DNA of 64,000 bases. Source: Gammaproteobacteria bacterium. Its GTDB lineage: Bacteria; Pseudomonadota; Gammaproteobacteria; UBA6429; Thiohalophilaceae. The stretch spans positions 1 through 64,000 of the forward strand of contig JAHECZ010000130.1 of assembly GCA_024641475.1 (NCBI GenBank). Reading direction: 5' to 3'. The number at the start of each line of letters is the position of its first letter. The stretch's first letter is position 1. Positions 29,591-51,729 of this stretch are shown here, piece by piece. Under the pieces are notes generated by a model. It was not told the origin of the DNA. It searched no databases and saw nothing but the letters and a program-made list of their open reading frames with translations. Both the position numbers and the translations under genes were made by a program.

Positions 29591-29619
29591 TACGAATTGT
29601 CTCAATCAGTTGCAACAAT

Positions 29620-30494: not shown

Positions 30495-31466
30495 TTAAGA
30501 TGGCAGGAAGTCGATGGGGTATTTTACGGTGGTAGTGTCGACATTATTACGCGGTTCAAACTTGAAAAGTCTGACACGGGAAATGATTTTCTTTTCTAAT
30601 TCGGCATCATTGAGTTCACTGGATAAAATACGCACATCCGAAACGCTGCCATTGGGCGCAATGGTAATTTCCAGCACAAGTTTGCCGCGTAAGGACGGAT
30701 TGGCACGTAAGGCGCGATTATAAATAGAGTCGATAGCTCCTCTATTTTTTTGGAACATCAGTTCAACTTCTTCCTGGCCGCGACTTCGACTTGATCCGCC
30801 ACCACCACCTTTGCCACCACCGCTACTGTTAATAGTGCTCTTGACTGCCGTGGTGTTACGTCCGGCGAGATTGCTTCCGCCCGTGGAGCGACCCAGTGTG
30901 CCTGCATTGATGCCACCACTGCCTTGACCAGCACGAGAGGCGATAACGGCAGAGGTATTGTCCGCAGCAATATTCGAGGTAGCGCCGCTGTTACTGGTGG
31001 GTTTCTGGTTTTTAATTGCTGCAGTGCTGAAAGACTGACGTAAATCTGCCAATTCATCCTGCATCGCCATTAAGCCGCTGCTCTCGGCTTTTTTGCGGGC
31101 AGCTTCGGTGCGCTGTTGGGCGGTTGGTTCCGATTTTTTAGGTTCGACCTTTTTAGGCTCAGGTTTTTTAGGTTCCGGCTTTTTAGCTTCAGGTTTCTTT
31201 TTCTCGGGTTTTTTAATTTCCGGTTTTGGTTCGGGAGGTTTGGGTTGTGCCTGACGTTCAATCACAAGCTTAACAAAGCGTTCTTGATCCAGTTGCAGTT
31301 CACTTTCATCTACAGTGGGGTTGTAGAATGCGGCAATGAATGCAAGTACAAAAAAAAGAATGTTACCTAATACAAACGCGACAGAAGCGATACCTGCAAA
31401 GCGCCGGTCATACTCGTTCTTCGACCAGGGTAAGGCATCTTCAAAAGTGGCAGCGCTGTAGGTCAT
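30495..31466 (-). CDS. TonB-like energy transducer with AgmX/PglI C-terminal domain
   Basis: A 323-residue protein with one N-terminal membrane helix (residues 28-48), a Pro/Lys repeat linker of the KKPEPKK type (about residues 75-115), a Gly/Ser-rich region and a C-terminal domain with GKLVLEITIAPNGSVSDVRIL and VRLFKFEP, the AgmX/PglI version of the TonB fold. This domain spans the periplasm to deliver proton-motive energy from an ExbB/ExbD motor. It is the last gene of the ExbB-ExbD-ExbD cluster, 6 bp after the second ExbD. Confidence 0.9.
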   Translation of the reverse strand: MTYSAATFEDALPWSKNEYDRRFAGIASVAFVLGNILFFVLAFIAAFYNPTVDESELQLDQERFVKLVIERQAQPKPPEPKPEIKKPEKKKPEAKKPEPKKPEPKKVEPKKSEPTAQQRTEAARKKAESSGLMAMQDELADLRQSFSTAAIKNQKPTSNSGATSNIAADNTSAVIASRAGQGSGGINAGTLGRSTGGSNLAGRNTTAVKSTINSSGGGKGGGGGSSRSRGQEEVELMFQKNRGAIDSIYNRALRANPSLRGKLVLEITIAPNGSVSDVRILSSELNDAELEKKIISRVRLFKFEPRNNVDTTTVKYPIDFLPS

Positions 31467-31472
31467 CGGTAA

Positions 31473-31985
31473 CTAACTCTTTTCTTCTTTCTGCACAACG
31501 GCCAGAGAAATATTTGTGAAATCCATGCTTGCGCAACTGAGCATGATTTTTTTAATCAGTTCATAAGAGATGTGTTTATCGCCCATTATTGTGATGCCGC
31601 GTTTACGGAATTGTGCCTCGTCTATTTTTTTTGCCTTTGCCTTGATGAGTTGCTGTTCAAGTGCCACAAGTAGGCCAGGAATAATCAACTCTTTCTTGGC
31701 CAAAACCTCCGGCGTGCTGGCTACCGTTTTGCTATCGATACTGATTTCTTCATTACTCACAATAATAACGATATTTTCTTTGGGGGAGCGCTCCGAAATG
31801 GATTCGGGCATTTTAATCTGCGGTGGTGTTTTGAGAATCTCCGATTCAGTCGAAGCATTGACCAACAGGAACAACAACAAAATTGTGAAAATATCCATCA
31901 GCGACACCATGTTGAGCGTGGCGTTGGACTTGTTGCGTTTGTGGTGCCGGGTCATCCGGCTGGCGCGGCGTGAGGATTTTTGCAT
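31473..31985 (-). CDS. ExbD/TolR-family protein (second)
   Basis: A 170-residue motor subunit with a single N-terminal helix containing the proton-carrying aspartate in LNMVSLMDIFTILLLFLLV. The periplasmic part continues with the usual beta-rich ExbD domain (GITIMGDKHISYELIKKIM). With the preceding ExbD it supplies two different TolR-like chains to one TolQ-like channel, as in the myxobacterial AglQ/AglS pair. The start follows the first ExbD by 7 bp and the TonB-like gene follows 6 bp later. Confidence 0.92.
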   Translation of the reverse strand: MQKSSRRASRMTRHHKRNKSNATLNMVSLMDIFTILLLFLLVNASTESEILKTPPQIKMPESISERSPKENIVIIVSNEEISIDSKTVASTPEVLAKKELIIPGLLVALEQQLIKAKAKKIDEAQFRKRGITIMGDKHISYELIKKIMLSCASMDFTNISLAVVQKEEKS

Positions 31986-31992
31986 AGTTAAC

Positions 31993-32487
31993 TCATTTCG
32001 CGGGGGCGTCGCCGATAGAAATGTCTGGAAACAATTCTGCGGCTAAAAGTTTATTGTCTCTGACTACCCGGAAATTGCGGGTGGCATCCATGACCTTAAC
32101 CAGGGTGTCGTAGGAGGTGTTACGTTCCGCCAGGATAGTCGCATTATTTTTATCTGGAAAACGGGCTTTGATTTGTTTTAGTACGTCAGTCAGTTGTGCA
32201 TACGCGTAGCCGTCTTTGTCAGCAGGTATCGTGGCGATGCGTCCGCCTTTGCTATCCGACAAAATGATATTTTCTTGATGAATGATTATCTGCAGTTGAA
32301 ATTCCGGTTTGTCTTTATCCTGACTTGCATCACCCAAGCCGGGTAAATTCAATTCCAGGATAGCCATTTTGGTAAAAACTACGCTCATGAGCAGAAACGG
32401 AATTAACACCACCATCAAGTTCATGAAGGCGGTGACTTCCAGCTCCGGTGTACCGTGGAGCCGCTCGCGCAGACGGCGGTGTCTCAT
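31993..32487 (-). CDS. ExbD/TolR-family protein (first)
   Basis: A 164-residue biopolymer-transport subunit. The membrane helix reads VTAFMNLMVVLIPFLLMSVVF; here the usual Asp of the helix is replaced by Asn (FMNLMV), which is notable because that residue normally carries the proton. The following periplasmic domain includes ATILAERNTSYDTLVKVMD. Its ATG overlaps the ExbB stop by 4 bp, so the two are translationally coupled. The second ExbD in this cluster does keep the aspartate. Confidence 0.9.
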   Translation of the reverse strand: MRHRRLRERLHGTPELEVTAFMNLMVVLIPFLLMSVVFTKMAILELNLPGLGDASQDKDKPEFQLQIIIHQENIILSDSKGGRIATIPADKDGYAYAQLTDVLKQIKARFPDKNNATILAERNTSYDTLVKVMDATRNFRVVRDNKLLAAELFPDISIGDAPAK

Positions 32488-33164
32488 GGTTCTTTGGAAT
32501 CTTTAACGTTCTTGCGTTGTACGATCAGATTAACGAATTTAACCGTCGCCATTTCAAGGCTGTCGAGGATTTCCGTGGTCTTGGACTGGATAACGGCATG
32601 GATGATCAGCAGTGGTATTGCCACCATCAATCCAAACGCCGTCGTGGCCATCGCGGTGGAGATACCTTCAGACAGTTTTGCGGCCTTCTGTGCCGCGTCC
32701 ACTGTGCCAAGCGATTGGAAAGCGGCAATCAATCCGGTAATGGTGCCGAGTAGCCCAAGCAGAGTTGCAACGTTGGCAAACATCGGAATGTAATGGGTAC
32801 GCTTTTCCAGGCGCGGTATCACTTCCAGCATGCTTTCTTCCATGGCCATTTCTATATCATCGCGACCTTGTGCGGTTTTATAACGCGACAGGCCTTGTGA
32901 CAACATGCGCCCGATAGCTGTGCTGGATTTGGCGGCAATGGTAAAGGCTTGTTGAAAATCGCCGCGTTGTAGTGAGCCGAGTGCTTTGGAGAGCATAAAA
33001 CGGTTCTTGGCGCGCGATACCGTCAAATAGATATAACGCTCGATGGCAACGGCGATACCGAGTGCCATAACGACCACAATTGGCCACATCCAGATACCGC
33101 CTTTTTTAAGATCAAAAGCGCCAATAAAAAAATCAAAAAAACTGGTTACACCGGGTTCGTGCAT
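32484..33164 (-). CDS. MotA/TolQ/ExbB-family proton channel
   Basis: A 226-residue inner-membrane protein with three helices: residues about 20-42, 122-150 and 160-185. The signature FANVATLLGLLGTITGLIAAFQSLG and GISTAMATTAFGLMVAIPLL are the conserved TolQ/ExbB pore helices. AGGAG before the ATG at 33164 fixes the start over an in-frame ATG at 33191. It forms the stator/motor complex with the two ExbD proteins. A 200-bp spacer separates it from the upstream 96-residue gene. Confidence 0.95.
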   Translation of the reverse strand: MHEPGVTSFFDFFIGAFDLKKGGIWMWPIVVVMALGIAVAIERYIYLTVSRAKNRFMLSKALGSLQRGDFQQAFTIAAKSSTAIGRMLSQGLSRYKTAQGRDDIEMAMEESMLEVIPRLEKRTHYIPMFANVATLLGLLGTITGLIAAFQSLGTVDAAQKAAKLSEGISTAMATTAFGLMVAIPLLIIHAVIQSKTTEILDSLEMATVKFVNLIVQRKNVKDSKEP

Positions 33165-33365
33165 TGCATTTTCTCCTGACAAGTACCGCAACTCAGGGTA
33201 GCGGCAGTAGTAAATAAAAAAGTTAATCAGAACGGTGGTGAACAGTTACAAGGCATTCTGACTCGCTGGACTGGTCAACCTTTGTTCAGAATCGTATCTG
33301 TTTTTTGTTTGCACCTCAAAATCGGTAGCCAAGTATTACATCGTAAAATCTGATTCTCAAACTGT

Positions 33366-33656
33366 TTACTGTTTCGCAGAATTCCTTATATCTTGTGAGG
33401 ACAAGGCGTCATAGTAACGTATTTGACGTTGAAAAACCTCGCGATCGACTGGACTTAGAGCTTCATCAATCAGACTCTCCAAGGGAGGCTGACCAATATC
33501 AGGTAATTCGGATTGTTGCCAGGGAACAATATATAAGACTTTGGGGAGTTCCTGGTTGCCATGAACCTTTGAACCTTCCATTTCTAATCGTTCTTCCGCA
33601 AGTCCATACGGGCTCAAACAGCAGAGTAACAATGTGAGGTTGATGTATCGATGCAT
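33366..33656 (-). CDS. Small exported protein, 96 aa
   Basis: Begins with a signal peptide (MHRYINLTLLLCCLSPYGLA) followed by a short mature part with the conserved-looking core LPKVLYIVPWQ and a helical tail (VDREVFQRQIRYYDAL). Its position, after the TPR lipoprotein gene and before the ExbB gene, suggests a periplasmic partner of the cluster. The final residues of the signal (LLLCC) could also be read as a weak lipobox. No domain name known to me. Confidence 0.65.
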   Translation of the reverse strand: MHRYINLTLLLCCLSPYGLAEERLEMEGSKVHGNQELPKVLYIVPWQQSELPDIGQPPLESLIDEALSPVDREVFQRQIRYYDALSSQDIRNSAKQ

Positions 33657-33671
33657 ACGATTACCCTGCCT

Positions 33672-34268
33672 TTATTTTTTACTTTGGCGAAGTTTGATAT
33701 CAGCAATCCATTTGCTTACCTGTTCATCCTTGTTGTCGGTCAGGTTCTGATATTTTTCGTACTGTTCCTGGGCCTGACTGAGATTATTTAGATAGATGTC
33801 ATACAAAACACCGAGATTCAAATGCGCATCCGCATAATTATTGTCCAGTTGCAAGGCTTGTTGGTACGCTTGCAATGCCTTATCGAATTTGCCTTGTTCG
33901 CGTAACGTGACACCAAGAAAATTTTGGGCCATGGCATTGCGATTATTGGCATTGATAGCCTGGTTAAATGCGAGTTCCGCATCAGCATAGCGCTGTTTTT
34001 TTAGATGAATCAAACCGACATTGACATAGGCGCTGGATAATTGCGGCGCTTTGGCAATGATGGCGTTAAACTGCGCCAATGCTTTTTCATCCGCGCCACT
34101 TTTGAGACTGGCCACAGCGGATTTATATTGTGCGGCGATTTCCGGGGAGACGTCGACTGGTTTGGAAGTAGCTAAACCAGCGCTATTGTCAGTCGATGGT
34201 GAACTGGCACAACCAGCTAATAGCATTAACAGCAACGCTGGCAAAGAGTTAATTAATGGCTTCAACAT
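33672..34268 (-). CDS. TPR lipoprotein, 198 aa
   Basis: A lipoprotein with the lipobox LLAGC at residues 16-20 and four to five tetratricopeptide repeats (ALAQFNAIIAKAP, YADAELAFNQAINANN, FDKALQAYQQALQLDN, YADAHLNLGVLYDIYL). Its start lies inside the 3' end of the preceding gene (20 bp overlap), with AAAGG upstream. It probably sits in the periplasm attached to the outer membrane and acts in the same complex as the other TPR proteins of the cluster. Confidence 0.88.
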   Translation of the reverse strand: MLKPLINSLPALLLMLLAGCASSPSTDNSAGLATSKPVDVSPEIAAQYKSAVASLKSGADEKALAQFNAIIAKAPQLSSAYVNVGLIHLKKQRYADAELAFNQAINANNRNAMAQNFLGVTLREQGKFDKALQAYQQALQLDNNYADAHLNLGVLYDIYLNNLSQAQEQYEKYQNLTDNKDEQVSKWIADIKLRQSKK

Positions 34269-37056
34269 AGGAATTTACCTTTTCAGTTTTGCCATAACGC
34301 GCAGGTTGCAGTTTACGTAGTTGCGCCAGACTGCGTTTAATCCAGTCGTCGTATACCCCATTTTGGATCTGTTTGAGATTCTCGACATGAATCTCAATCG
34401 CTTTTTCTTCAAAAGGAAATGCTTGTTCTTCCAGCAGGGTATCGTATTGCTGTAATTCTTCTGTATTGAGATTCTTGGGGCGCTCTGACTTGAGCAACGC
34501 GCTGGCGAAGTCCGCATAGATTTCGGCAATCTGATAGGTTGCTGATGTGCTGACTTCGGCGACACGGTACTGCAATACACCTTCATAGGCTTTGATGGTG
34601 TTTTGCATCAAGTCTTTTTTGCGCGCCAGACTTTCCTTGAGCGGATGGGTGAGCTTGGCTTGCTTATACGCATTGAAGTGGCCTTGCGCCAGTAACAATG
34701 TCGCGTCAGCAGCCAGATAACGGGTGCGATCAGAACGCTGCGGGCCAGCCGCAGAATCAGTACGAATGATGTCTTGCAACCAACGACCCCATTCACGCCC
34801 ATCGCCGCTCTTGCGGGCAATTTCTGCCAGGTTATGCCGAGCTTCCATAGCCTGATCTAGTGGTGCAGGGAATTGTTGCAGGTATTGTTCGTAGACACGT
34901 TTGGCATCGTTATTTAGTTTGCCTTTTTCATAGAAGCCAGCGGCTTGCCATAGCAAACTACGGCTGTATTCCGGATTGGATTTATGTTGCTGTGCGAGAC
35001 GTTCCATTTCAGTGGCGGCGCGAGTGGACTGGCCGGTTTCGCTGTAAATGAAGGCCAGTTTCTCTGGTACGGTAACAGCCAGTTCATGGTTGGGATATTC
35101 TTTGCGGAATGTTTCCAACATGGCAGAGGCTTTCTTGAAATCTTTCAGCTTGATGGCAATTGTTGCCGCATCATAATCTGCATTGGCGCGCAATTTTGAA
35201 GCGGGTGTCGCTGTCTTGATGCTGGCGAATAATGCCAATGCGGAGGGCAGGTCACCCTTGTCGCGCGCTTGTTCACCTTGCTTATATATAGAGGCGGCAA
35301 GCCGGTCATAAATTTCACCATATTGTTTTTCTTTGGGGGAAATATAGTTCAATGCTTCACGATAGGCCTGCTGGGATTGCGCGTAATTCTTTTGATCAAA
35401 TTCGGCATGACCGAGCACGACCAGGGCGGTACGTTTCAATGCAGGGTCTTGCACCTGCAGTTTAAGTACGCGTTGTGCGGTTGCGGAAGCGCGTAAATCG
35501 TCATTGATAGCAAATAACTGCTCGGCGGTTTTTGTTAATACGGCTGGTACACGTTTGTCCGCCGGGAATTGATCGGCAAAACGGAGTGCGCTGCTAATGG
35601 CTTTCTGGCGCCAGGTCGAGTTGAATTCCGCAGGCGGAATTGTCTTTTCAATTTCCGTATAGCTCAATAGTGCGGCATAACCTGCTTCAGCGCGTTTAGG
35701 ATGATCGGCATACTCATAGGCCGTTTTTTCATATTCCGTAACGGCGCGCGAATAGAATTTACCATCGAAGAGTGCTTCGGCCATCAGGAAATTCATTTTT
35801 GCTGCGTCTTTATCATTCGGCAGATTCTTTAGATACAACGTATAAAGCTCTGCAGCATGATTGAAATCTGCTGGCAGTTTGCTGCTGCGTGCCACGGCGT
35901 GGTAGTGCGTTGCCAACTCAGTAAGGTGTTTGGCAAGCAAGGGACGGATATGTTCCCGCGAGGCTTCAGACTGTAAATCCCAGTATGCCGAACCCACACC
36001 GTATAAACGCACAAACTCTTCTTTGGCAGGAATTACCAGGCTGATCAAATTAGCCTGCTGATAAGTATTAATGGCGTTGGTATGAAATTCCGGCGCGAGT
36101 GACGAAGTTGGATTACGTTTCACAAATGCCATGAAGGTATCGGCAGCGTCTTTGCTGCGATCCTTTTCCATGTAGAGTTTTCCCAGACTCAGATAGACGA
36201 GTGGTTCATAGGGACGCGAGCTGGTTTCATCGAAGTATTTGCCAATTGTATAGTCGCTGCCGGCATAGGAAAAACACAAGCTGATTGCACGCATTGTGTC
36301 ATCGAGTAGTTCACGTTCGCTGCCGATGAGTTCCGGCAAGGCCTGAGAATATTTGATCATGCCTTGTTGTTGTTTGCGATCCATGATCGCGAAAAACGCA
36401 TTGAGAGCAGGCTTGTAGCGGCCTTGTTTGAAGTGCGCCCAGCCGTATTTATACATGGCTTTTTCGTAGAAAATGGAAGTCTTGTTGTTACTGATGATAG
36501 AGGCGTAGGCGAGTTCAGCATCTTCATAACGTTTCAGCAGGAACAACATTTCACCACGACGGAATTGCACCTCATCGCGATAGCGCGTATGCGGGTATTG
36601 CGCCATGGTTTTATCAAACATTTCCAATGCCAATTGCGATTGCCCGGTGAGTTCATAGGCCTTGGCCAGTTGGTACATAATGAGATCATTGGCAGGATCG
36701 TGTGGATAGGTCTTTAGATAAGTCTGATAGAGTTTAATTGCCGCCAGTGTTTGTTTCTCGCCATTTTCGTCATGGGCAGTTTCCTTGGATTCAATACTGC
36801 CTTCGCCGGTCTTTAATTCCAGATCGGCCAGACGGCGTAGTGCCTCGCTGTACATCTTGTTTTCATTGGTGACGGAGAGAAACTCACGATAATATTCACG
36901 TACCTTGTCCGGATCGACCTTGATTGCTTCCTTGGGTTCTTCCAGATCAATCTTGCGATCCTTGATGCTGGCAATGGTCTGCAGATCGGCATTTTTACCG
37001 GCGCAGGCGCTCAACCCCAGTACTGCAGCAAGTAGCAGCCAATTATTCCTTGGCAT
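34249..37056 (-). CDS. Large TPR lipoprotein, 935 aa
   Basis: Lipobox LSAC (residues 15-18) follows a short signal, then about 900 residues of helical tetratricopeptide-like repeats (AIKLYQTYLKTYPHDPAND, QLALEMFDKTMAQYPHT, YEDAELAYASI, SRAVTEYEKTAYEYADHPK). The first repeats resemble BamD/YbgF-type modules. An AGGAGG site precedes the ATG. Large TPR lipoproteins with ExbB/ExbD partners occur in the Glt/Agl apparatus of myxobacteria. The gene overlaps the next by 20 bp and the previous by 14 bp. Confidence 0.88.
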   Translation of the reverse strand: MPRNNWLLLAAVLGLSACAGKNADLQTIASIKDRKIDLEEPKEAIKVDPDKVREYYREFLSVTNENKMYSEALRRLADLELKTGEGSIESKETAHDENGEKQTLAAIKLYQTYLKTYPHDPANDLIMYQLAKAYELTGQSQLALEMFDKTMAQYPHTRYRDEVQFRRGEMLFLLKRYEDAELAYASIISNNKTSIFYEKAMYKYGWAHFKQGRYKPALNAFFAIMDRKQQQGMIKYSQALPELIGSERELLDDTMRAISLCFSYAGSDYTIGKYFDETSSRPYEPLVYLSLGKLYMEKDRSKDAADTFMAFVKRNPTSSLAPEFHTNAINTYQQANLISLVIPAKEEFVRLYGVGSAYWDLQSEASREHIRPLLAKHLTELATHYHAVARSSKLPADFNHAAELYTLYLKNLPNDKDAAKMNFLMAEALFDGKFYSRAVTEYEKTAYEYADHPKRAEAGYAALLSYTEIEKTIPPAEFNSTWRQKAISSALRFADQFPADKRVPAVLTKTAEQLFAINDDLRASATAQRVLKLQVQDPALKRTALVVLGHAEFDQKNYAQSQQAYREALNYISPKEKQYGEIYDRLAASIYKQGEQARDKGDLPSALALFASIKTATPASKLRANADYDAATIAIKLKDFKKASAMLETFRKEYPNHELAVTVPEKLAFIYSETGQSTRAATEMERLAQQHKSNPEYSRSLLWQAAGFYEKGKLNNDAKRVYEQYLQQFPAPLDQAMEARHNLAEIARKSGDGREWGRWLQDIIRTDSAAGPQRSDRTRYLAADATLLLAQGHFNAYKQAKLTHPLKESLARKKDLMQNTIKAYEGVLQYRVAEVSTSATYQIAEIYADFASALLKSERPKNLNTEELQQYDTLLEEQAFPFEEKAIEIHVENLKQIQNGVYDDWIKRSLAQLRKLQPARYGKTEKVNSYVEAIN

Positions 37057-38971
37057 GACCGGCCTCCTGCTCCTTGCTCAACTTGTCATACAAACGTGCC
37101 ACGCCAAAACGTGCGCGAATATGATAGTTCTCCATTTGTTGGTTACCTTGTTGCAATGCCAGCAGCGCCAAGGTTTGGATGTAGCGTTCCTGTTCTTTGA
37201 TGGTGACATCAAGCTGTTTTAATAAAACACCGATTCGTCCGCGTGCGACATTGATGCGTGCATTAAATCCCTGGAAAAACAGTGGGGCACGATTGGCGCT
37301 GAGGATCAGTGATTGCTTGCCTTTGTTGGCATTACTGAGAGCTATATCAAGTTCTTTGAGGTGTTTTTTGATTTCCCATAAACGTGCCGGAAAATCATCA
37401 TAGACATTCCAGTACAGTACGCCGAAACTGGTGCGAAAACGTTCCTGATCGGGCGTGATTTCCTGCGTATACGTATCCGGCGAACCGAGATGGGTTTTCA
37501 GGCGATTAATAATTGCCAGCTTTTCGATTTCGTCGGGTGTTGCCAGCGCAAACACATCCTGTTCCTTTTCGATGCGGGTGATTTCTGCTGCAAGCGTGTC
37601 ACGTTGTTCCTGCATCAGGGTGGTTTGTTGTAAGCGATCGCTGTTACCAATCTCGGGTAGTTTTTCGAAATAGGCCTTACGGCGTTCGGACAGCATCAAT
37701 TCATAAGCGGGTAATTGTTGTAACCAGTTGTTCAAGACATACTGCAGATGTAACAGATTTTGATAATCTTTGTAGGCTTCCTGAAATGCGTGGGTGGCCA
37801 TCAACTGGTGCAGATAGGGTGTGGTGATTGAATTTGGTAAACCGAAAGTATGAATCGGCATGGAGGTTTCATCATCGTAATTGCCCGGGCGCATTGCTTT
37901 GACCAGCTCGCCACGTTGTACCGCTTTAATGATCTCACCCATGTGGGTGATTTCCTTGCTATAGGTTTCAATGGCGCCTTGATAGTATTGCAGCGCAAGT
38001 TTGGGTTTTTCGAGTTTTTCGATGGTGTAAGGAATGGCTAATAACGATTCCTGCACGGAGGTATCCAGTGCTAATCTGTCCTTGAGTTCCATCCACGGCG
38101 CCAATGCTTTGGTGTATTCATTTTGCGCTGTTAATGACCAACCCATGCCTAACAAGGCTTTATTGGATAATGGCCCACGCAACCGAATTCGTTCAAAATC
38201 TTTTTCTGCTTCGGCGGGTTTACTATCACGCAGATTGGCAAATCCCAAGGCCAGATTGGCTTTATCACGCAGCGCATTGAGCTCATGGTTAATCGAAACA
38301 GAATTAAGGCTGCCAACCTTATTGAGCATCTCGACGCCTTCAGCAATTTTTCCTGCCTTGATCAAGGCAACACCCAAATTAAACTGGGCATAGGCTTGCC
38401 ACTCTTTGTCACCACTGAAGTTACGTAGTACTTCAATGGCTTTGTCGTATTGTTGGTTCGCCAGATAAATGTTGGAAAGTAAATGCAGGCGTTCGGCTTC
38501 GCGATCGGGCGGCAGTGTTTTCTGGATCTTTAGCAGCGCTTCTTCGGCCTCGGGAAAATAACCTTTGATATAGCGGAGCTTGGCGATGTAGTACCAGGCA
38601 CGATCATGGGTTGCCGGCAGGCTGGAACTGGAAAGCACTTCGTCGAATAATTTACTGGCTTCATCGTGCATGCCATAGGAAAGATATAAGCCGCCGAGCA
38701 GCAGATTGGGATCTTCACCCTGTACTTCGAACGGTTTGCGTTTTTGTGCTACCAGCAGATTAGTGATAGCCGAAAAATATTTCTTTTGGTAAAAATTAAA
38801 CAGGGTCTCGCCATAACGCAGATCGCGGATGTCCTGTGGCTTTTGTTCGTTGTTGGCAGCCGCATCGGCAGCAGCGGTTTTTTCATCGGCATAAACATGT
38901 TGCATGCTGCCGGCAGCCGCACATAGCAGCATGATCACCGTAAAACGAACTTGTCGGAGGGAGCTATACAT
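37043..38971 (-). CDS. Exported TPR protein, about 642 aa
   Basis: A periplasmic protein with an N-terminal signal (MYSSLRQVRFTVIMLLCAAA, cleavage near VYADEK). The mature part contains tetratricopeptide repeats in its first half (PNLLLGGLYLSYGMHDEASK, YFPEAEEALLKIQ, QYDKAIEVLRNFSG) and longer helices in the second, with coiled-coil character around LAAEITRIEKEQD. The ATG at 38971 has GCAGG upstream; a GTG at 38980 is possible. It overlaps the 935-residue lipoprotein gene by 14 bp. Confidence 0.85.
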   Translation of the reverse strand: MYSSLRQVRFTVIMLLCAAAGSMQHVYADEKTAAADAAANNEQKPQDIRDLRYGETLFNFYQKKYFSAITNLLVAQKRKPFEVQGEDPNLLLGGLYLSYGMHDEASKLFDEVLSSSSLPATHDRAWYYIAKLRYIKGYFPEAEEALLKIQKTLPPDREAERLHLLSNIYLANQQYDKAIEVLRNFSGDKEWQAYAQFNLGVALIKAGKIAEGVEMLNKVGSLNSVSINHELNALRDKANLALGFANLRDSKPAEAEKDFERIRLRGPLSNKALLGMGWSLTAQNEYTKALAPWMELKDRLALDTSVQESLLAIPYTIEKLEKPKLALQYYQGAIETYSKEITHMGEIIKAVQRGELVKAMRPGNYDDETSMPIHTFGLPNSITTPYLHQLMATHAFQEAYKDYQNLLHLQYVLNNWLQQLPAYELMLSERRKAYFEKLPEIGNSDRLQQTTLMQEQRDTLAAEITRIEKEQDVFALATPDEIEKLAIINRLKTHLGSPDTYTQEITPDQERFRTSFGVLYWNVYDDFPARLWEIKKHLKELDIALSNANKGKQSLILSANRAPLFFQGFNARINVARGRIGVLLKQLDVTIKEQERYIQTLALLALQQGNQQMENYHIRARFGVARLYDKLSKEQEAGHAKE

Positions 38972-38983
38972 TACCTGCACTTC

Positions 38984-39589
38984 TTACTCTGCTTCCCAAA
39001 CCTTGACCTTGAATTCAGGTTGATATTTTGCCGTGCTGTCGCTGATTTTTAGTTCGACATATTGCGGGTTAGGGCCTTTACTGACCCTCACGGTAGTGGC
39101 GCGTTTGTAGTCGCGATTTTTTGGACCGCGACCGGTAAAGTACGCAATGAATTCATGCTCACCCGACGTGATGTTACCGGTATAAAGACGTTGCACTCCG
39201 CCACGCTTGAGTGCGTTGACTTCACGCTCGGTATACAAATGACTCGATACGACCTTATCGTTGAGTTTGAGTTGCACCGAATCCAAATCAAATAGCAAGC
39301 CGACATCCATGGAGACAAACACGCTGAATTGCGTATTGGCGGGGAACAGCAAATCTTCTTCGAGCAGGAACAGATCACGATTTAAATTCAATACTTCTTT
39401 TTTCAGATCTTGCACGCGGGTATCGAGCGTACTGGTATGTTTGCGTGCCGCATCTTCCAGGGCTTTTTCATCGACCTGTTTATCTTTGGTCGGTGGCGTG
39501 GCAGCAGGTGGTGCATCGGCGGCCTGGGTAAAAGGAACGGCGCTGAAAAAAAGTAGTGAGGCTAACGTCAGTATCGGTGCGATACGCAT
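38984..39589 (-). CDS. Exported coiled-coil protein, first gene of the TPR/ExbB cluster
   Basis: A 201-residue periplasmic protein. MRIAPILTLASLLFFSAVPF with cleavage near TQAAD is a clear signal peptide; AGGA upstream supports ATG 39589 over a frame open to 39631. Residues 50-85 are a coiled coil (TRVQDLKKEVLNLNRDLFLL), followed by a beta-rich part (FSVFVSMDVGLLFDLDSVQL, YTGNITSGEHEFIAYFTG). No named family. It opens the minus-strand cluster that runs to 30495. Confidence 0.7.
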   Translation of the reverse strand: MRIAPILTLASLLFFSAVPFTQAADAPPAATPPTKDKQVDEKALEDAARKHTSTLDTRVQDLKKEVLNLNRDLFLLEEDLLFPANTQFSVFVSMDVGLLFDLDSVQLKLNDKVVSSHLYTEREVNALKRGGVQRLYTGNITSGEHEFIAYFTGRGPKNRDYKRATTVRVSKGPNPQYVELKISDSTAKYQPEFKVKVWEAE

Positions 39590-39722: not shown

Positions 39723-40742
39723 TTATTGTGGGTTTGGGGCTGTGATTGCTGCTTTTCCATCTGCACCGGGTGGCGGTGGCGGCATTAAGCCGGATGAATA
39801 ATGCAGTTTGCCCTGCATATCGATAATCATCGCGTCGACATTCGGGACTTTTTCGATGAAGGCCATGCCTTTTTCGGGTCCTAAAATGAATACCGGTTTG
39901 GTCAAGCCATCCGTCATCGTGGCCGTCGGGCCAATAACGGTCACACTGCGCGCCGTGTGGGATGGTTTACCGGTGCGGGGATTGAGGATGTGATGGTAGC
40001 GTTGGCCATTTTCGATGAAGTAGCGTTCATAGTCCCCTGAAGTGGAAATGGCCGTATCACTCAACGGGATCATAATGGCCGATGCATTGGGATTGCGCGG
40101 GTCTTTGATACCGATCATCCAGGGCCGACCGCCGCGATCACCGATAATCCGACTATCCCCCCCGGCACTGACAATAGCTTGATGGATACCGCAGGCCTGG
40201 AGTTTTTCGATTCCCCGATCTACCGCCCAGCCCTTGGCGATGCCACCGAGATCGACATGTACGCCCAATTTGCCGTATTGAATCGTCTGAGCCTTGTCAT
40301 CCAAATGCAGCAGGTGGTAATCAATCTTATCCAGGTCTTTGGCAATTTGCGCATCGCTGGGATGCACGCCGTTACGGAAATCATAACGATAACCGACACT
40401 GGCAAACGTGACGTCAAAGACGCCCTGCGATAACTCAGAAAAATGAATCGAGGTTTTGATGACATCGAAGAGTTCGGGGCTGACTTTGACTGGGTGTAAC
40501 GCGGCGGTTTCATTGAGTTTGTAAAGTTCTGCCGTCGGCTTGAATGGGCTCATGACATCGTCGACATGACGCATCAACGTCATGACCTGGTCGATACACT
40601 GCCTGGCGTGAGGTTCGGTGTCATCCCATAACTCCACACTGACCGAGGTGCCCATAATGGCTTGCTCGTCTTTGTACCACTGGGCCTGGACGGGCAGGGC
40701 AATTAGCTGGGCAAGTAGCAGAAGGAGATAACGGTGCGGCAT
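39723..40742 (-). CDS. apbE: FAD:protein FMN transferase
   Basis: ApbE attaches FMN covalently to threonine of exported flavoproteins such as NqrB/C and RnfG, or takes part in periplasmic flavinylation. Residues 1-20 are a signal peptide from ATG 40742. Family motifs are AIMGTSVSVELWD, HVDLGGIAKGWAVDRGIE, AIVSAGGDSRIIGDRGGRPW, ISTSGDYERYF and HHILNPRTGKPSHTARSVTV, with the metal-binding Asp in ATMTDGLTKPVF. About 339 residues, with an extra Pro-rich tail (PPPPPGADG). No Nqr or Rnf gene is in the window. Confidence 0.95.
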   Translation of the reverse strand: MPHRYLLLLLAQLIALPVQAQWYKDEQAIMGTSVSVELWDDTEPHARQCIDQVMTLMRHVDDVMSPFKPTAELYKLNETAALHPVKVSPELFDVIKTSIHFSELSQGVFDVTFASVGYRYDFRNGVHPSDAQIAKDLDKIDYHLLHLDDKAQTIQYGKLGVHVDLGGIAKGWAVDRGIEKLQACGIHQAIVSAGGDSRIIGDRGGRPWMIGIKDPRNPNASAIMIPLSDTAISTSGDYERYFIENGQRYHHILNPRTGKPSHTARSVTVIGPTATMTDGLTKPVFILGPEKGMAFIEKVPNVDAMIIDMQGKLHYSSGLMPPPPPGADGKAAITAPNPQ

Positions 40743-41064
40743 AGGTACTGGTGAATTGTTTGGGTAAATCAATATCTGTTGGAAAATGTGATCTTGGCAG
40801 AAGCGCCGAGTTAGAGCCAGTGAAATCAGTAGGTTATTTAACCAAAGTGTGCTAGAGTCCGCAGCAGTGTTTGTTTACGATGCAACGTAAGTCAGAGTTG
40901 CATCACGTACCCGCCAGGATTTTTTCGATCGCCACGCAGGTACTTCAAACCCGGCGCGGTTGGTGTTTCCTCTCAAGGTCATATTTCCCGCATTATCGAT
41001 GTTCAAGCCTTGCAGGCAGGTGTTTGCATGGGCTTATCGTTATTTTTTTGGAGCTATTTATTCT
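40743..41064. other. Intergenic region between apbE and rhlE
   Basis: About 320 bp between divergent start codons. It should hold both promoters. The rhlE frame remains open back to 40960, but GGAG ahead of ATG 41065 and the family start point to a long untranslated leader instead, as is common for cold-induced DEAD-box genes. No RNA gene, repeat or strong hairpin was seen. Confidence 0.5.
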
Positions 41065-42409: not shown

Positions 42410-44068
42410 TTAAACTGCTGCTTTAAATGCCGTTAATGAGTCCTGTGAAGTTGCATCTCCCAATCCATGACCGCCGGCATTGGCCATGAAGCTGTCAAAT
42501 GTCATTGGAGAATTATCCGCGTTCTTTAAGCCAGTATTTAAAGCCATGTAGTTGAGCCAGACCATTTGTACTAATTGATTCACATTTCCTGCACCGGGCG
42601 TGCTGCTGGTATCGACTGCACCGGCTGCGGTAAACCCACCAATCTGATGATGTGATTGATCGGCTGCCCCTTTGGCGGGCGTAATCTTCGTTGACTTGGT
42701 GAGTGGGTCATAGACGAGGAAGAAGGAACAGGCTGTGGTAGAACTATCGCCAGTCCAGACTCCTTTGCCTCCAGGGACGGTGACTCCACCGTTGGTTACT
42801 GCATTCATGTCCAGGCTACCATCACTGAACACTGATCCGTCACTATAGACATAGATCATCAATTTTGATCCCTTGAGTGCCGCATATTGCAGACAGGCAC
42901 CGATACATTTGCCAGCGCGCAAATCACGGGCGTCACCCGTAGTCCTATCCCCGGTGTGATAGTCGTAGCCACCCATCGTAATACAACCGGCGCCAGCAAA
43001 ATTGCTGACGACCATTTTCATAACTGATGCTGTTTTACGAAATTCTGCATCACCGTTGTATTCTGCAGTAGTGAAAATACTGTTTGTACCACCCACAATG
43101 AATTGGTCTGTGGAAGGGTTGATTTGGGTAATGTCGCCAAAGGTTTCGGCAATACTGGCTGCTTTCACATAACCACAATTAACCATCTCTTGCAGTGCCT
43201 TATTTTTTGCAGCGAAATCCGTCACTGAATTGGGATAGGGTTTGATACTGCTTGTTTTATCAATACTGATACGTGCCGCCGTTTCCATCACACTTACTGC
43301 ATCTGCCTGGCTCATCACGGCGGTCAGATTGCCGGTATCAACTAGGCCGGTGACGTCACTGGGTTGCGATACCTTGGTTGGACGTGCCGATGGATTCATA
43401 AATAATGTGGGCGCCAGTGAATTGCCGCCCGAATCGGAATTCTGTGAACCGATCAACGTACTGACCTGACCGGTCATCCCCATTGCCGCGATACCATAGA
43501 GTGGGTTATGCGGATTATTGCCTGTATCGTTATCGGAACGTGCAGGGATCACGGCGCCGTCAATAAAGCCGCTATTTGGATTCGTAAATTTACTCTTGAT
43601 ACCCGCCAATAGCGCACTTTGCGAATGGAATTTCAATCCCAGCGTACTGTCCACAAACGTCAATGTAGAATCAGGCAGGCGATTCGCGGGTAGTCCCATG
43701 CGGCTATACCCCGTTGCATTGAGGAAGGCCATTTGTCCGTCGACATTCGATTTTTGTCCGACTAAAACATTCGAAGCGGCCAGATTGGCTCCTCCAGCTA
43801 AATCAAAACAGATAAACGGGACCATAGCCGACGGCCCACCCGCTAAGGTGCAATCTGCGCCAGCAGGCCCCGTTAATGTGGGATCATCACTAATTAATGC
43901 CTGGGCTTCTTCCGGGTGCATGAACAAGCTTAACAAGGCAGGACCGGTTACCATTGCACCGCCACTGAGCAAGCCCTGGCGTATAAATTGCCGACGTGTC
44001 ACCGGCCGAGGATGATCCGAGAAATGCAGCGGTGCATCAGGATGCAGTGGAGGGCGTTTTTTAGTCAT
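42410..44068 (-). CDS. Tat-exported DUF1501-like protein
   Basis: A 552-residue exported protein. Residues 25-26 are the twin arginines of a Tat signal (TRRQFIRQGLLSGGAMVTGP), followed by a long mature domain with DUF1501-like features (PFICFDLAGGANLAASNVLV, then GCITMGGYDYHTGDRTTGDA). Proteins of this type occur with exported cytochromes in secreted-protein operons. Three Cys pairs (GADCTLAG, VNCGYV, AGKCIGACLQ) are present. GGAG lies 8 bp before the ATG at 44068. It follows the LamG-type lipoprotein gene by 30 bp. Confidence 0.75.
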   Translation of the reverse strand: MTKKRPPLHPDAPLHFSDHPRPVTRRQFIRQGLLSGGAMVTGPALLSLFMHPEEAQALISDDPTLTGPAGADCTLAGGPSAMVPFICFDLAGGANLAASNVLVGQKSNVDGQMAFLNATGYSRMGLPANRLPDSTLTFVDSTLGLKFHSQSALLAGIKSKFTNPNSGFIDGAVIPARSDNDTGNNPHNPLYGIAAMGMTGQVSTLIGSQNSDSGGNSLAPTLFMNPSARPTKVSQPSDVTGLVDTGNLTAVMSQADAVSVMETAARISIDKTSSIKPYPNSVTDFAAKNKALQEMVNCGYVKAASIAETFGDITQINPSTDQFIVGGTNSIFTTAEYNGDAEFRKTASVMKMVVSNFAGAGCITMGGYDYHTGDRTTGDARDLRAGKCIGACLQYAALKGSKLMIYVYSDGSVFSDGSLDMNAVTNGGVTVPGGKGVWTGDSSTTACSFFLVYDPLTKSTKITPAKGAADQSHHQIGGFTAAGAVDTSSTPGAGNVNQLVQMVWLNYMALNTGLKNADNSPMTFDSFMANAGGHGLGDATSQDSLTAFKAAV

Positions 44069-44098
44069 CGTCATTACTCCAGTTGAGTATTCGTAAAA

Positions 44099-46813
44099 TT
44101 ACTGTAATAGCATTGGTGCGCTGGCATAGGCTGCCGCACAAGTGGCCTTCACAATGTCGGCCGTGCGTGTGGCCGAACAGGTGGTGCCGCTACAGGGTTG
44201 GTTCACCGTACTGCCTTTATTCGCAACAAGTGTATTGATCAAGGTTACTAGGCGACTGTGTACGGCTGTAGCTGTTGGTTGTGGATTTTCACTCACGGAA
44301 TGCGTTAATGGCGAGCTTAAATCGCTATTCAGCAAATGGACGAGTAGCGGGTTAATCACCGCATCCTGGGCGGCAGCGTTACTGAAATCAGTATTCCCAC
44401 TGAAGTTCACACTCGGGAAGTAAATGCTCCGCTTGGTGGAATCATTCACTAGCACACTGCAGTATTGGATCGCCAATTGCGCAATGCCCATTTGATGGGA
44501 TGAGAGGAACCCTTCAATGGCTTCTGATGCAGGCAACTGTTGATACAGATTGGTATAGGTTCCATTTGTCCCACCAATTGTACTTTCAGTGCGATTCACC
44601 CCGGTCACCTTGGCTAAACCCGCGTTGATCTCCTCAAAGGTATGGATCATGACATCCGATACCAGTTGTGGGCTTGGCGGCAGCGGATCCAGTTGCGCAC
44701 CGGATAATTGTGGGTTGTAGCGATTTGCAGGAGATGTTTTAGTCGAACCAATTTCTTCAAAAGTCAGGAAGAATTGATCGTCTGCACCACCTTTGTCTTT
44801 TGGAATGACTGTGCCGACATAAGATAGTACCTGCCCGGCATCTTGCACCGTACCGTGAATATATTCGGTGTTATTAATCGTCTTGCTGACTTCTGCAAAC
44901 GCCTGGCCAATGGTCGCTTCACGCGCATTAATTCCAAGATGAATACCCTTGATAGTGATGCCATAGGGTACAGTTGCTGGGTCACCTAAGTAGATAAAGG
45001 TGGGCTTATAGAAGAGATAACTGTAATCATCAAATTCCTGCGCTTGCATGTAGATGAAGCTCGACTTGGTTGCAGCACCAATCATATCGCTGACATCAAA
45101 CATCAGGATATATTTCTGGCCAACCCCTGAGGAGAAGTTTTCAAGAACTTCATTGGCAGTGAGTGGACGTGAATGAATTGCAACTTTACGAATAGTGCCC
45201 AACCAGGGGCTCGAGCCAGCACCACCTTCATCACCCAATACCAAACTCGCGCCAGAAGTTAACCAATTGCTGAAATCTGTGCCGCGATTTGTATCTGCGT
45301 TATTAGTTTGTACCCCATTGATGAACACGCGACGACCGCTGCCGGGTGTATATGTCACCACGACATGTTGCAATGACGGCAATAATGTGCCCGAGTCAAA
45401 TCCGGGTTCACCGGCAAGCACTTCGGTAGGTGACGCAGTAGTGCCAGTTTGGCGCGTAAAGTTGCGGTACGTCGCCTGATACTGCGATAAAGAGACATTA
45501 CGATGTGCTGCATCGGCACTGATTCCGACGATATTGGCTTCTTGCGTTGTGTTATCTGGTATGACCCAGGCTTCGATGGTATAGCCATTCGGAAAGCTCG
45601 CCAGTTTTGTGGTGTCAGCAATATCTCCGCCGCGGATAGTGACACCACTACCTGCAATGTGAATGCCCCAACTTTTCAGCCACGTGTAATTTGTTCCGGA
45701 AATATTTAAATCGTAATGCGAACCAATCGTGCTGCTATCGTGTATAACGGTACTACCGGTTCCTTCATCAAAATTATATACCGCAACTTGTGCGTCTTCG
45801 ACACGCGGACCACTGCTAGCAGTAATTCCATCGTTATAAAGATTCACCGACCAGCTTGGGAGAATTCCTGTTTCAAGCGTGGCTGGCGTGAAATTGCTAT
45901 CTGAGAGCAGTGTTTTAATAGCGTCTAACATGACTTGAGCATCACCGGTGGGATTCATCGGGTCAGTCGTATCGTAACAGTTCGATGTCCAGCAATTGTG
46001 GTGATCCGTGGCAAGTCGTAGAAATAGACGCGATTGATTTGGTGTAACGGCATTGACTTTAGCATTGCTGACAATGGCGTCATAGGCTGCTTGCGCATTG
46101 GTTACAGCAAAATAAGGTTGTTGCGCCTGGGTTGCTGTAGGGACGTGACAGTTGCTGCAATGGTTTTTAAGAAGCGTGTGTAATGTGGTGAAAGTTCCTG
46201 GAACATTTTTTGGGAAAGTAATTGCATCAGTTACTGGTATTTCACCTGCTGGAGCAGTTAGCTGTGTAGCAGCGAGTGTTGTCAGTGGATTGCTACCGGT
46301 AGGCACGCTGGATTGAACCCAATCCTTAATCCATCCCGACAAAATCGAACCACACTTGGCGGCATTTGTTGGATCATTACCCAGCCAGCAGTTATGGCCA
46401 ACAACGCCACCAATAACTTTCTTGACCATAGGGGATTGATCAGGGAAAGTGCGATTTATATATTTATCCTGATTGGCAGTATTATAAGAACCGGTAAGAT
46501 CGTTTATATCTGCGAAAGGGTATGCGCTGGCCGCCTTGCCTGGTGCATGACACAGCCCGCAACGATTAGATGAATTATTAATATTAACCCAAAGCGAATC
46601 ACGAAAAGCAAGTTTGTCGCCATCTGCAGAAGGTTTAATAATATTTGCAGCAGAACCACCTCCAGACTGTGGCGCATGTTCGGTTGTGGAAGCACCGCCA
46701 CCACAACCAACAAGGGATAACGCGGCCAACGAAGCAAAAAGACCAAGTCGAGTTAATTGCCATGCAGATGTTTTCGTTTTCATTGAGGTGCTCGTATTTT
46801 CATTGCTCATCAT
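44099..46813 (-). CDS. LamG-domain lipoprotein with two c-type heme motifs
   Basis: A 904-residue lipoprotein (lipobox LVGC at residues 34-37). Heme attachment motifs CGLCH at 85-89 and CSNCH at 219-223 precede a concanavalin/LamG-like beta-sandwich (about residues 340-560, with VEDAQVAVYNFDEGTGSTV, GYTIEAWVIPD and RRVFINGVQTN). The remaining 340 residues are alpha/beta and of unknown family. It is likely a surface-exposed electron-transfer or binding protein. The ATG at 46813 has GGAG upstream; the frame is open to 46891. Confidence 0.8.
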   Translation of the reverse strand: MMSNENTSTSMKTKTSAWQLTRLGLFASLAALSLVGCGGGASTTEHAPQSGGGSAANIIKPSADGDKLAFRDSLWVNINNSSNRCGLCHAPGKAASAYPFADINDLTGSYNTANQDKYINRTFPDQSPMVKKVIGGVVGHNCWLGNDPTNAAKCGSILSGWIKDWVQSSVPTGSNPLTTLAATQLTAPAGEIPVTDAITFPKNVPGTFTTLHTLLKNHCSNCHVPTATQAQQPYFAVTNAQAAYDAIVSNAKVNAVTPNQSRLFLRLATDHHNCWTSNCYDTTDPMNPTGDAQVMLDAIKTLLSDSNFTPATLETGILPSWSVNLYNDGITASSGPRVEDAQVAVYNFDEGTGSTVIHDSSTIGSHYDLNISGTNYTWLKSWGIHIAGSGVTIRGGDIADTTKLASFPNGYTIEAWVIPDNTTQEANIVGISADAAHRNVSLSQYQATYRNFTRQTGTTASPTEVLAGEPGFDSGTLLPSLQHVVVTYTPGSGRRVFINGVQTNNADTNRGTDFSNWLTSGASLVLGDEGGAGSSPWLGTIRKVAIHSRPLTANEVLENFSSGVGQKYILMFDVSDMIGAATKSSFIYMQAQEFDDYSYLFYKPTFIYLGDPATVPYGITIKGIHLGINAREATIGQAFAEVSKTINNTEYIHGTVQDAGQVLSYVGTVIPKDKGGADDQFFLTFEEIGSTKTSPANRYNPQLSGAQLDPLPPSPQLVSDVMIHTFEEINAGLAKVTGVNRTESTIGGTNGTYTNLYQQLPASEAIEGFLSSHQMGIAQLAIQYCSVLVNDSTKRSIYFPSVNFSGNTDFSNAAAQDAVINPLLVHLLNSDLSSPLTHSVSENPQPTATAVHSRLVTLINTLVANKGSTVNQPCSGTTCSATRTADIVKATCAAAYASAPMLLQ

Positions 46814-46856
46814 GATGATTTCTCCAGGAACCGAGACGACATGTGCTGGTCGACGG

Positions 46857-48107
46857 TTAGTTACCACGGCAATCGTAAGCCGCATCGGCAAAAAGTTGCT
46901 TCATTTTGTAACCGCTGTTTTTAAAATTGGTTACTAAATTGTTCAGCGTGCTAGGTGTGCCATCTGAATCAGAGGGTTCATTAAAACAAACCGTTTTGTA
47001 AACTTTGATGGCTTGGCAGCGGGCAAATTGTTCCGACGAAGCGATTTCCATACCTAAAGATTGCATGCCGTTACCGGGATACATTGCTTGTGGGGAATTA
47101 TTTGGAATCGTACTACCTGGAACTGGATTTGCACCCCAGCCGAAATTCGCATTAGGTCCGGTACGCCAGCGGTTGATCCAACTGTCATCGGAGGTCACAT
47201 AGCCATAAGGAAAAACTGTGGAATTTTGTAAGTGTTTCGCTTGAACAACGCCATTTTGATAAATCATATTACCGTTATCGCCATTAGGATCGTTGTTAAC
47301 ATCGTAGTTCCATTGATAGTATGCATATGCACCTGCCAATCCGTCCATACCGGCATGACAACCGAGACAGGTATTTAAGTAAACACTGCTGTCACCACCA
47401 GGGCTACGGTCAGGATCTTGACGAACTCGATCGGGAATGCGGCTGGTATCTTTGATGGCTTCCAGGTCTTTGCACAGATAATTAACAAAGGTAAAGCGCA
47501 ACATGCGGCGATTGGTGCCTGCGTAGAAAAAGGCACGGGCCGATTGACGGGTAGTGAGTACACCGGCAACGCCTACAGGATTGATGCCAGTCACACCCGA
47601 TTGGGTTGCTTGGGTAAGTACACTGGCACTACGTAAATCCGCATCTGTAGCTTCCATATTTCTATACATGGTGTTATTGCTATTAGAATAGGTTCCAGGA
47701 CCGACATATATGATGTTGTCGTACATGGCGCGGCGGAAATCCAGATCATCGCGAATGATGCCGATCAATGTTGCTGCCGCGTCATTGAATTCATAAAACG
47801 CGGTCATATCTTTGTTGGTCCAGGGCACAACCATGTTTTTCAGGGTTACGTTATAAAAGTCTTTAGTTTGCATGGCAATATTTGCCGCTGCGTAGATGTC
47901 GCTACTAGTGCCACTATTCAGTAAAGGCGCCATGGCGTTAATTTCACTCGTGGTAGGCGGTACACCGGCAAGTCGTTCATACATGCGTTTGGCTTGTTCA
48001 TTGACATCAGCTGATGCCGAGTTCACGACGCCTAGAAACAAACCGCCGGCTAGCGCCGCCGAAACTAGTGCCTGGACATAATTGTGTGACAGAGTCGCGT
48101 TTTTCAT
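46857..48107 (-). CDS. Exported monoheme c-type cytochrome-like protein, 416 aa
   Basis: Residues 1-33 are a signal peptide (VQALVSAALAGGLFLGVVNS, cleavage near SASA). A single heme motif CLGCH is at 247-251, inside VYLNTCLGCHAGMDGL, in a context like DUF1588/DUF1585-type cytochromes (RMLRFTFVNYLCKDL). It is the first gene of a three-gene minus-strand unit with the LamG lipoprotein (43-bp gap) and the Tat-exported protein. I infer a secreted redox complex but cannot name the substrate. Confidence 0.78.
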   Translation of the reverse strand: MKNATLSHNYVQALVSAALAGGLFLGVVNSASADVNEQAKRMYERLAGVPPTTSEINAMAPLLNSGTSSDIYAAANIAMQTKDFYNVTLKNMVVPWTNKDMTAFYEFNDAAATLIGIIRDDLDFRRAMYDNIIYVGPGTYSNSNNTMYRNMEATDADLRSASVLTQATQSGVTGINPVGVAGVLTTRQSARAFFYAGTNRRMLRFTFVNYLCKDLEAIKDTSRIPDRVRQDPDRSPGGDSSVYLNTCLGCHAGMDGLAGAYAYYQWNYDVNNDPNGDNGNMIYQNGVVQAKHLQNSTVFPYGYVTSDDSWINRWRTGPNANFGWGANPVPGSTIPNNSPQAMYPGNGMQSLGMEIASSEQFARCQAIKVYKTVCFNEPSDSDGTPSTLNNLVTNFKNSGYKMKQLFADAAYDCRGN

Positions 48108-48428
48108 GTGAGGTTCCTACGTTATCCAGTGTTTTAACGACAATTATTTCAGGCTTCTGTATGTTGTGCGGCAAACCGCCAACTGGTTCACGTCATATTC
48201 AGGCCTAAAAGCTAACAGTTCTACTTTAGTTGGAAACCTGAATAATTTTCATGATATTGGTCACAGAATCAGTATTGTTTATTACCCCATAATACAAAGA
48301 CGTTATGGGGTTAACACCTTGGGCCGATGATTTAATTGCCGAATGCAGAAGTGTCGTTACTATTATGAGTGACGATGCATATTTGCAAAGTGTACCTATT
48401 ATCAATTTCAAATAGAGTGAGTACGTAT
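48108..48428. other. Divergent intergenic region between the cytochrome-like genes
   Basis: About 320 bp separate the 416-residue minus-strand gene and the beta-propeller gene at 48429. It should contain both promoters. The notable element is an inverted repeat at 48284-48311. Upstream in-frame codons of the propeller gene extend to 48369 but contain no likely start. No RNA gene was recognised. Confidence 0.5.
48284..48311. promoter_or_regulatory. Operator-like inverted repeat ACCCCATAA
   Basis: ACCCCATAA at 48284-48292 and TTATGGGGT at 48303-48311 are perfect reverse complements with a 10-bp spacer, so the half-site centres are about two helical turns apart. It lies midway between two divergent secreted-redox genes and could co-regulate both. 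No known operator matches in my memory. Confidence 0.5.
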
Positions 48429-50991: not shown

Positions 50992-51729
50992 ATGCAGCGG
51001 CTGCTTTTGAGTGTGTTGGTATCGCTATGGGTAGGTTGGGTTTCTGCTGCCGAAGTGGAACGCAACTTCGTGCAGGTAGCCGATCCCTATATCGAGATGC
51101 ATACCGGCCCTGGTCGAGGCTATCCGGTGTTTTATGTCATTAATCGAGATGACTGGGCGGAGATACTATATCGTCAGACCGACTGGTTTAAGGTAAGAAC
51201 GGATGCCGGCATCGAAGGTTGGGTGTCACGTGCCGAAATGCAACAAACGCTGAGCCCGGATGGCCAGCATGTGGATATTAAAGAAGCCTCGCGGGATGAT
51301 TTTATCGCGCGCAAATGGGATATGGGCCTGTTTACTGGTGATTTTGGCGGTGGCTACAGTATTGGGACTTTTGGTGGCTATCATATGACCGAAAACATAT
51401 CTATTGAGGCCTCATTTGCACAAATACTCGGCAATGTCTCAAATAGTTATATGTTGGCATTCAACTTAGTGGAAGAGCCGTTCCCTGAATGGGTGATTTC
51501 ACCGTCTTTTTCACTCGGAACAGGAAGAATTAAAACAACGCCACGGTCAACCCTAACCCAAACTAAAGATGGAACTGATAATTTTTCCTTTTATGGTATT
51601 GGCGCGCGCATGCATTTGTCCCATCGGTTTTTCTTGCGGCTTGACTATAATAATTATGTTGTATTCACCAGTCGCAACAACAATGAGGAAGTAAGAGAAT
51701 GGCGAGCCGGATTTGCGTTTTTCTTTTAA
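50992..51729 (+). CDS. SH3-domain outer-membrane barrel protein
   Basis: A 245-residue exported protein: signal peptide MQRLLLSVLVSLWVGWVSAA, then a bacterial SH3 domain (residues 25-85, with YIEMHTGPGRGYPVFYVI and GIEGWVSRAEM) and a C-terminal beta-barrel of about 140 residues ending in FAFFF, the outer-membrane terminal Phe signature. AAGGGA precedes ATG 50992. It is the first gene of a five-gene run that also includes a TlpA thioredoxin and DUF3570 protein, and its 3' end overlaps the next gene by 31 bp. Confidence 0.82.
   Translation: MQRLLLSVLVSLWVGWVSAAEVERNFVQVADPYIEMHTGPGRGYPVFYVINRDDWAEILYRQTDWFKVRTDAGIEGWVSRAEMQQTLSPDGQHVDIKEASRDDFIARKWDMGLFTGDFGGGYSIGTFGGYHMTENISIEASFAQILGNVSNSYMLAFNLVEEPFPEWVISPSFSLGTGRIKTTPRSTLTQTKDGTDNFSFYGIGARMHLSHRFFLRLDYNNYVVFTSRNNNEEVREWRAGFAFFF

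Follow-up and report, generated by a model that had tools for sequence, protein, structure and literature searches.

The window, by which we mean the whole 64,000-nucleotide stretch of gammaproteobacterial DNA that was analysed, contains a cluster of nine genes on the minus strand. These are transcribed from position 39589 to position 30495 in the order s215-GltC-GltD-GltE-s96-TolQ-TolRa-TolRb-GltG. An earlier note on this DNA had placed such a gene set here, and all nine open reading frames were found in this segment and on one strand. The length of 642 residues that it gave for one TPR protein was confirmed with ATG starts, the first gene of the cluster beginning at 39589. Most neighbouring genes overlap, as the note had reported, or are 3-15 nt apart, except that about 200 nt separate s96 from the channel gene. 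A promoter-like site in this gap was rejected, as it was close to chance expectation.

The first gene, s215 (38984..39589), encodes a small exported protein with a signal peptide, a coiled-coil helix and a C-terminal beta-sandwich. In the AlphaFold model (pLDDT 86) the helix spans residues 44-84 and is followed by a sandwich of 8 strands, which matches the transthyretin/Ig-like arrangement with Z values of about 8-9, a common type of beta-sandwich that indicates no function. Then come three genes for TPR proteins: a GltC-like exported protein of 642-645 aa (37043..38980; TPR_16, 2e-11), which has a Sec signal in its sequence and an invariant position, a GltD-like lipoprotein of 935 aa (34249..37056; TPR_6, 8e-21) with the lipobox LSAC and YbgF-type TPR repeats, and a GltE-like TPR lipoprotein of 198 aa (33672..34268) with the lipobox LAGC. 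The last of these matches the NCBIfam model for GltE at 1e-13, a score that generic TPR models equal. The TPR matches of the other two are generic, and their putative identities as GltC and GltD rest on domain type, position and the 2011 paper discussed below. A second small exported protein, s96 (33366..33656; 96 aa), lies between GltE and the channel and has positional homologs in other copies of the cluster. Neither s215 nor s96 matched a Pfam family, and s96 was also without a match in NCBIfam.

The motor genes code for a TolQ/ExbB-type proton channel that resembles AglR (32484..33164; MotA_ExbB, 5e-29) and for two ExbD-like proteins, TolRa (31993..32487; ExbD, 4.8e-14) and TolRb (31473..31985; ExbD, 1.6e-14). 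The last gene (30495..31466) encodes a GltG/AgmX-like transducer of the TonB type, with matches to TonB_C (1.6e-6) and to the AgmX/PglI tail (myxo_SS_tail, 2.5e-20). It consists of a short cytoplasmic tail in which Trp14 is conserved (95%), one transmembrane segment, a KP-rich linker and a TonB-like C-terminal domain, and has no FHA domain.

In about 14 other genomes from the same family and class, the nine-gene order is retained at every locus with the complete cluster, indicating that the arrangement is real and under selection rather than due to chance. GltE was undetected in two of these genomes, and loci at contig ends or without the motor were partial. Homologs of s215 were present in 59 of the 274 genomes sampled from the class. 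This gene is a marker of the stand-alone type of the cluster, while s96 is present in nearly all copies of both this type and a second, type VI secretion-linked type described below.

The gene content of the cluster, with one TolQ-type, two TolR-type and gltC, D, E and G-type genes in a single locus, is that of the core complex of Luciano et al. (2011, PMC3169522), who found gltC, D, E and G clustered with aglR, Q and S in one gammaproteobacterial locus of unknown function. According to that study, the single-locus clustering occurs outside the Myxococcales, the complex carries an additional gene absent from that order, and trees support its grouping with AglR, Q and S and GltC, D and E of M. 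xanthus. Several copies were reported from Teredinibacter and Saccharophagus, genera that were also met in our analysis. The resemblance to the Agl-Glt machinery that the earlier note had recognised is thus upheld by the published gene set, present here in one locus, and by the profile search that it had proposed. The NCBIfam model for GltG (NF033760) matches the TonB-like protein from the transmembrane segment to the C-terminus at 1.2e-17, under the 650-bit equivalog cut-off; the FHA half is absent. In a scan of the whole genome with a GltG model built from Myxococcus, the window protein was the best match to the TonB half, the second being located on another contig, C123. The occurrence outside the myxobacteria to which the note had pointed is true of this cluster, but had already been published for Gammaproteobacteria in 2011. 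By itself, the cluster is a further case of that functionally uncharacterised complex; the small genes s215 and s96 as conserved components, the wider locus and the proton-site asymmetry described below come from the present analysis.

The same Pfam families would also be expected in a Tol-Pal or TonB2 variant acting in envelope stability or nutrient uptake, and one of the TPR proteins scores with YbgF/CpoB-type repeats. However, the channel reached only 60 bits against the TolQ equivalog (cut-off 221) and the two ExbD-like proteins 28-31 bits against that for TolR (cut-off 127), there are two ExbD genes, and the TonB-like protein has an AgmX-type tail. No TolB or Pal was recognised among the genes of the window locus with Pfam, nor does the locus contain a TonB-dependent receptor. 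In the channel tree, 74 core-complex channels, the type VI secretion-linked ones included, formed one clade (support 97/96), and the TolQ-, ExbB- and MotA-type proteins of the window genome fell elsewhere, outside this clade. The better alignment with a Tol-Pal or TonB2 complex for which the earlier note had allowed was therefore not found, and we assign this explanation a very small probability. Among solved structures, the channel matched only TolQ/ExbB, and no close relative of GltG or GltD was found. The transducer also separates the cluster from the motor-vWA loci of the PVC bacteria (Mol Biol Evol 2025, PMC12204202), in which a vWA protein takes the place of the AgmX/TonB-type protein.

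In TolR and ExbD proteins, one aspartate in the membrane takes up the proton. At this site, TolRb has Asp (LMDIFTIL) in all 50 distinct sequences, whereas TolRa has Asn (FMNLMVVL) in 49 of 50, the exception coming from one distant genome. The split was repeated in named genomes, where the canonical ExbD of Psychromonas has Asp. For AglQ and AglS, the two TolR-like subunits of the Myxococcus Agl motor, a 2022 review describes the aspartate in each and leaves undecided whether they pair as homo- or heterodimers (PMC9389320). By the Asn in TolRa, the gammaproteobacterial motor differs from that of the myxobacteria, and the definition of the core complex from 2011 is silent on the proton site. From the Asn/Asp split we infer that TolRa and TolRb would form an obligate heterodimeric axle with a single proton carrier. 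The pair provides a natural experiment on whether such motors use a heterodimeric axle.

The cluster is part of a wider conserved locus. Its conserved upstream neighbour on the minus strand is a gene for ApbE, an FAD:protein FMN transferase (39723..40772; Pfam 5e-79), and further upstream the same strand carries genes for a Tat-signal-like protein (42410..44074), an exported LamG protein with two CxxCH motifs (44099..46891; Laminin_G_3, 2.6e-16), both also placed by synteny, and a conserved exported protein of 416 aa with one CxxCH motif (46857..48107). The Tat-signal-like protein has no Pfam match, but its model (pLDDT 69) indicates an alkaline phosphatase/sulfatase fold, the best 50 matches all belonging to this superfamily, with Z values up to 11.7. 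On the plus strand, the conserved divergent neighbour encodes a protein with a hydrazine-synthase-alpha-like domain (48369..50855; HZS_alpha, 3.9e-15). It is followed by genes for OMP1, with an SH3 domain and an outer-membrane barrel (50992..51729; OMP_b-brl, 2e-8; OMP_myx_plus, 3.5e-9), the outer-membrane barrel OMP2 (51699..52385; OMP_myx_plus, 1.2e-42), a syntenic TlpA/ResA-type thioredoxin (52408..52908; ResA, 1e-35) and a DUF3570 protein (53131..54297; Pfam 2e-29), which is also a conserved neighbour. On the other side of the cluster, the window contains two overlapping frames for YeeE/YedE-like sulfur transport (28551-29605) and, beyond these, a gene (24314-27604) whose 1096-aa product combines two cNMP-binding domains and one rhodanese domain with a coiled region that is very long and charged; relatives of this protein follow the core complex in several genomes.

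In about a dozen of the 20 loci examined, much of this set of neighbours, the divergent genes included, recurred beside the stand-alone core complex, and in one genome it forms a single co-directional run with s215. Several stand-alone copies among the 20 loci were without these neighbours, indicating that the set marks a subtype, to which any partnership with the barrels and surface proteins may be confined. OMP1 and OMP2 are the only matches to OMP_myx_plus in the genome, and are located 11-12 kb from the core cluster within the conserved locus. In M. xanthus, GltC is bound by GltB and GltA, which are paralogous barrels (PMC4488436), and we propose OMP1 and OMP2 as candidate functional equivalents of GltA and GltB.

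The neighbours also raise the possibility that the motor serves the export or assembly of a flavin/haem complex, to which ApbE, thioredoxin, DUF3570 and the CxxCH proteins would belong. In about a dozen genomes these genes are conserved beside the stand-alone type, and clusters in which ApbE, DUF3570 and thioredoxin occur together, as in the window, have been proposed as electron-transfer systems (eLife 2021, PMC8238504). The window set differs from those clusters in its link to outer-membrane barrels and a motor. However, the flavinylation motif [ST]GA[ST] is not present in the window DUF3570 protein, the stand-alone copies without the neighbours have to be accounted for, and the type VI secretion-linked sister has none of them. 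We therefore regard a redox function as unlikely.

A gliding motor like that of Myxococcus would be suggested by the homologous motor. The window locus shares with the Agl-Glt and Agl-Nfs machines one TolQ-like and two TolR-like proteins, a TonB-like GltG and TPR proteins, and its pair of outer-membrane barrels are candidate GltA/GltB equivalents; the window GltG differs in being without the FHA half. Yet no match to MglA was obtained in the genome, which is 97% complete (the search was run without a positive control genome), and there was no full-length GltJ, its best match being the shared TonB tail. Furthermore, Luciano et al. argued that motility is not driven by the core alone, which is present in bacteria for which gliding is not known (PMC3169522). 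With MglA not found and GltJ represented only by the shared tail, gliding is highly unlikely, and the surface movement that the earlier note had listed among possible outputs can be given little weight; transport or positioning at the surface is the most likely output. The LamG protein, the alkaline phosphatase/sulfatase-fold protein, the barrel pair and the lack of a match to MglA were all counted in favour of surface transport.

We thus consider the window cluster to be, with good probability, a stand-alone gammaproteobacterial Agl-Glt core complex, a proton-driven machine reaching from the inner to the outer membrane, akin to the ancestral core of the Myxococcus gliding motor, whose output is most likely the transport or positioning of surface material rather than gliding. 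In the proposed mechanism, protons would pass between the TolQ/AglR ring and an axle to which TolRa and TolRb each contribute one subunit, in a complex with a predicted 5:1:1 stoichiometry, and the motor would drive the TonB-like GltG across the periplasm. At the outer membrane, GltG would act on the three TPR proteins, of which GltD and GltE are predicted lipoproteins, and through them, in this subtype, on the neighbouring barrel pair and surface proteins. The load may be a surface protein or glycan complex, by analogy with Agl-Nfs and the spore coat; in M. xanthus, the Agl motor moves the Nfs proteins and a surface polymer (PMC3858216).

A second GltD-like gene in the genome, with 32% identity to the window GltD, is located on contig C123 (1-37 kb; loci L088 and L089), where a complete type VI secretion cluster surrounds a second core set. 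One arm has the order Fha-TssJ-TssK-TssL-TssM-TagF-PppA-PpkA-TolQ-TolRa-TolRb-GltG and the other TssA-B-C-C2-E-F-G-(lipoprotein)-H-GltC-GltD-GltE-s96. TssM and TagF were identified with Pfam, and TssA, B, C, E, F, H, J, K and L and the FHA protein with NCBIfam. The set is split at the place where the window cluster has its 200-nt gap, with the motor and transducer on one side and the TPR proteins on the other, and s215 is missing from it. Next to GltG lies a gene (24-4343 of L088) whose RHS-type product carries an Stv domain. Contamination was rejected as the source of this set, since another genome of the genus also has it and the two GltD are sisters. A plasmid search with the type VI secretion-linked GltD gave no match.

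The embedded arrangement is conserved in many gammaproteobacterial genera, both within this family and beyond it. Of 53 loci with this type of GltD in a scan of a named collection, 39 showed type VI genes in the DNA that was fetched, and just four in which the upstream DNA was long enough showed no recognised type VI gene; of 26 loci with the window type of GltD, none had any. Among the carriers are Aliikangiella, Colwellia psychrerythraea, Psychromonas, Teredinibacter, Saccharophagus sp. K07, Cellvibrio and Agaribacterium. In each of the 12 named genomes checked, PpkA lies beside the motor genes, with at most one small open reading frame between. Within the class sample, seven genomes gave a strong match to the type VI secretion-linked GltC, and all of these had TssK on the same contig, against a TssK background of 71 in 369 genomes. 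The GltD tree placed 40 type VI secretion-linked and 38 s215-linked sequences on opposite sides of a fully supported branch. A third context without s215, beside gatCAB and mreBCD, was found in two genomes (L152, G107 contig C13; L142, G236 contig C45), in which GltD groups with the type VI secretion side. One further core complex is located on a contig binned as a halobacterial archaeon (L207, JABDRC010000111.1), which is probably misbinned.

The location of the motor directly behind PpkA suggests a role in triggering the injection machine, placing it or passing it through the envelope; the motor might, for example, position the machine, open the envelope or sense contact upstream of PpkA. 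The TagQRST proteins of Pseudomonas act upstream of PpkA, and no TagQRST-type ABC-transporter genes were seen in the C123 cluster. On balance we lean towards a distinct gammaproteobacterial type VI secretion subtype with its own Agl-Glt motor. This motor would be part of the injection machine, and its ExbD axle would be heterodimeric and have only one proton carrier. Searches of the open-access literature gave no relevant report of TPR genes together with TolQ/TolR or ExbB/ExbD in a type VI secretion cluster; a survey of these systems from 2009 does not mention ExbD, TolR or TPR proteins, and the main text of PMC3169522 does not mention type VI secretion. No report of the one-Asp motor, the wider locus or, above all, the embedded sister was found in the open-access literature searched.

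The two sets may also have exchanged motors. In Cellvibrio sp. 79 (L277, L266), the type VI secretion-linked channel groups with the organism's own stand-alone channel (support 100/100), and in a genome from the genus of the window (G001) the two channel genes are 84% identical in DNA over the part compared; the channel pair of the window genome is far more diverged. The two G001 contigs (L068 end, L091 start) are each interrupted within a channel gene, and at the same point of it, as would fit a shared stretch of DNA that breaks the assembly. These patterns are suggestive, but not proof, of swaps by gene conversion or replacement between motors that would hence be interchangeable, which recalls the single Agl motor common to Glt and Nfs in M. 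xanthus (PMC3858216).

Noted in 2011 without an assigned function, the core complex is now made testable by the Asn/Asp pair and the type VI secretion-linked sister. The sister set, which lies inside a type VI secretion cluster and occurs in culturable genera such as Colwellia, Aliikangiella and Teredinibacter, suggests recruitment of a gliding-type motor by an injection machine, and the second copy suggests that several surface machines make use of this motor as a plug-in part. If so recruited, the Agl motor would be a general plug-in for moving or energising envelope machines.
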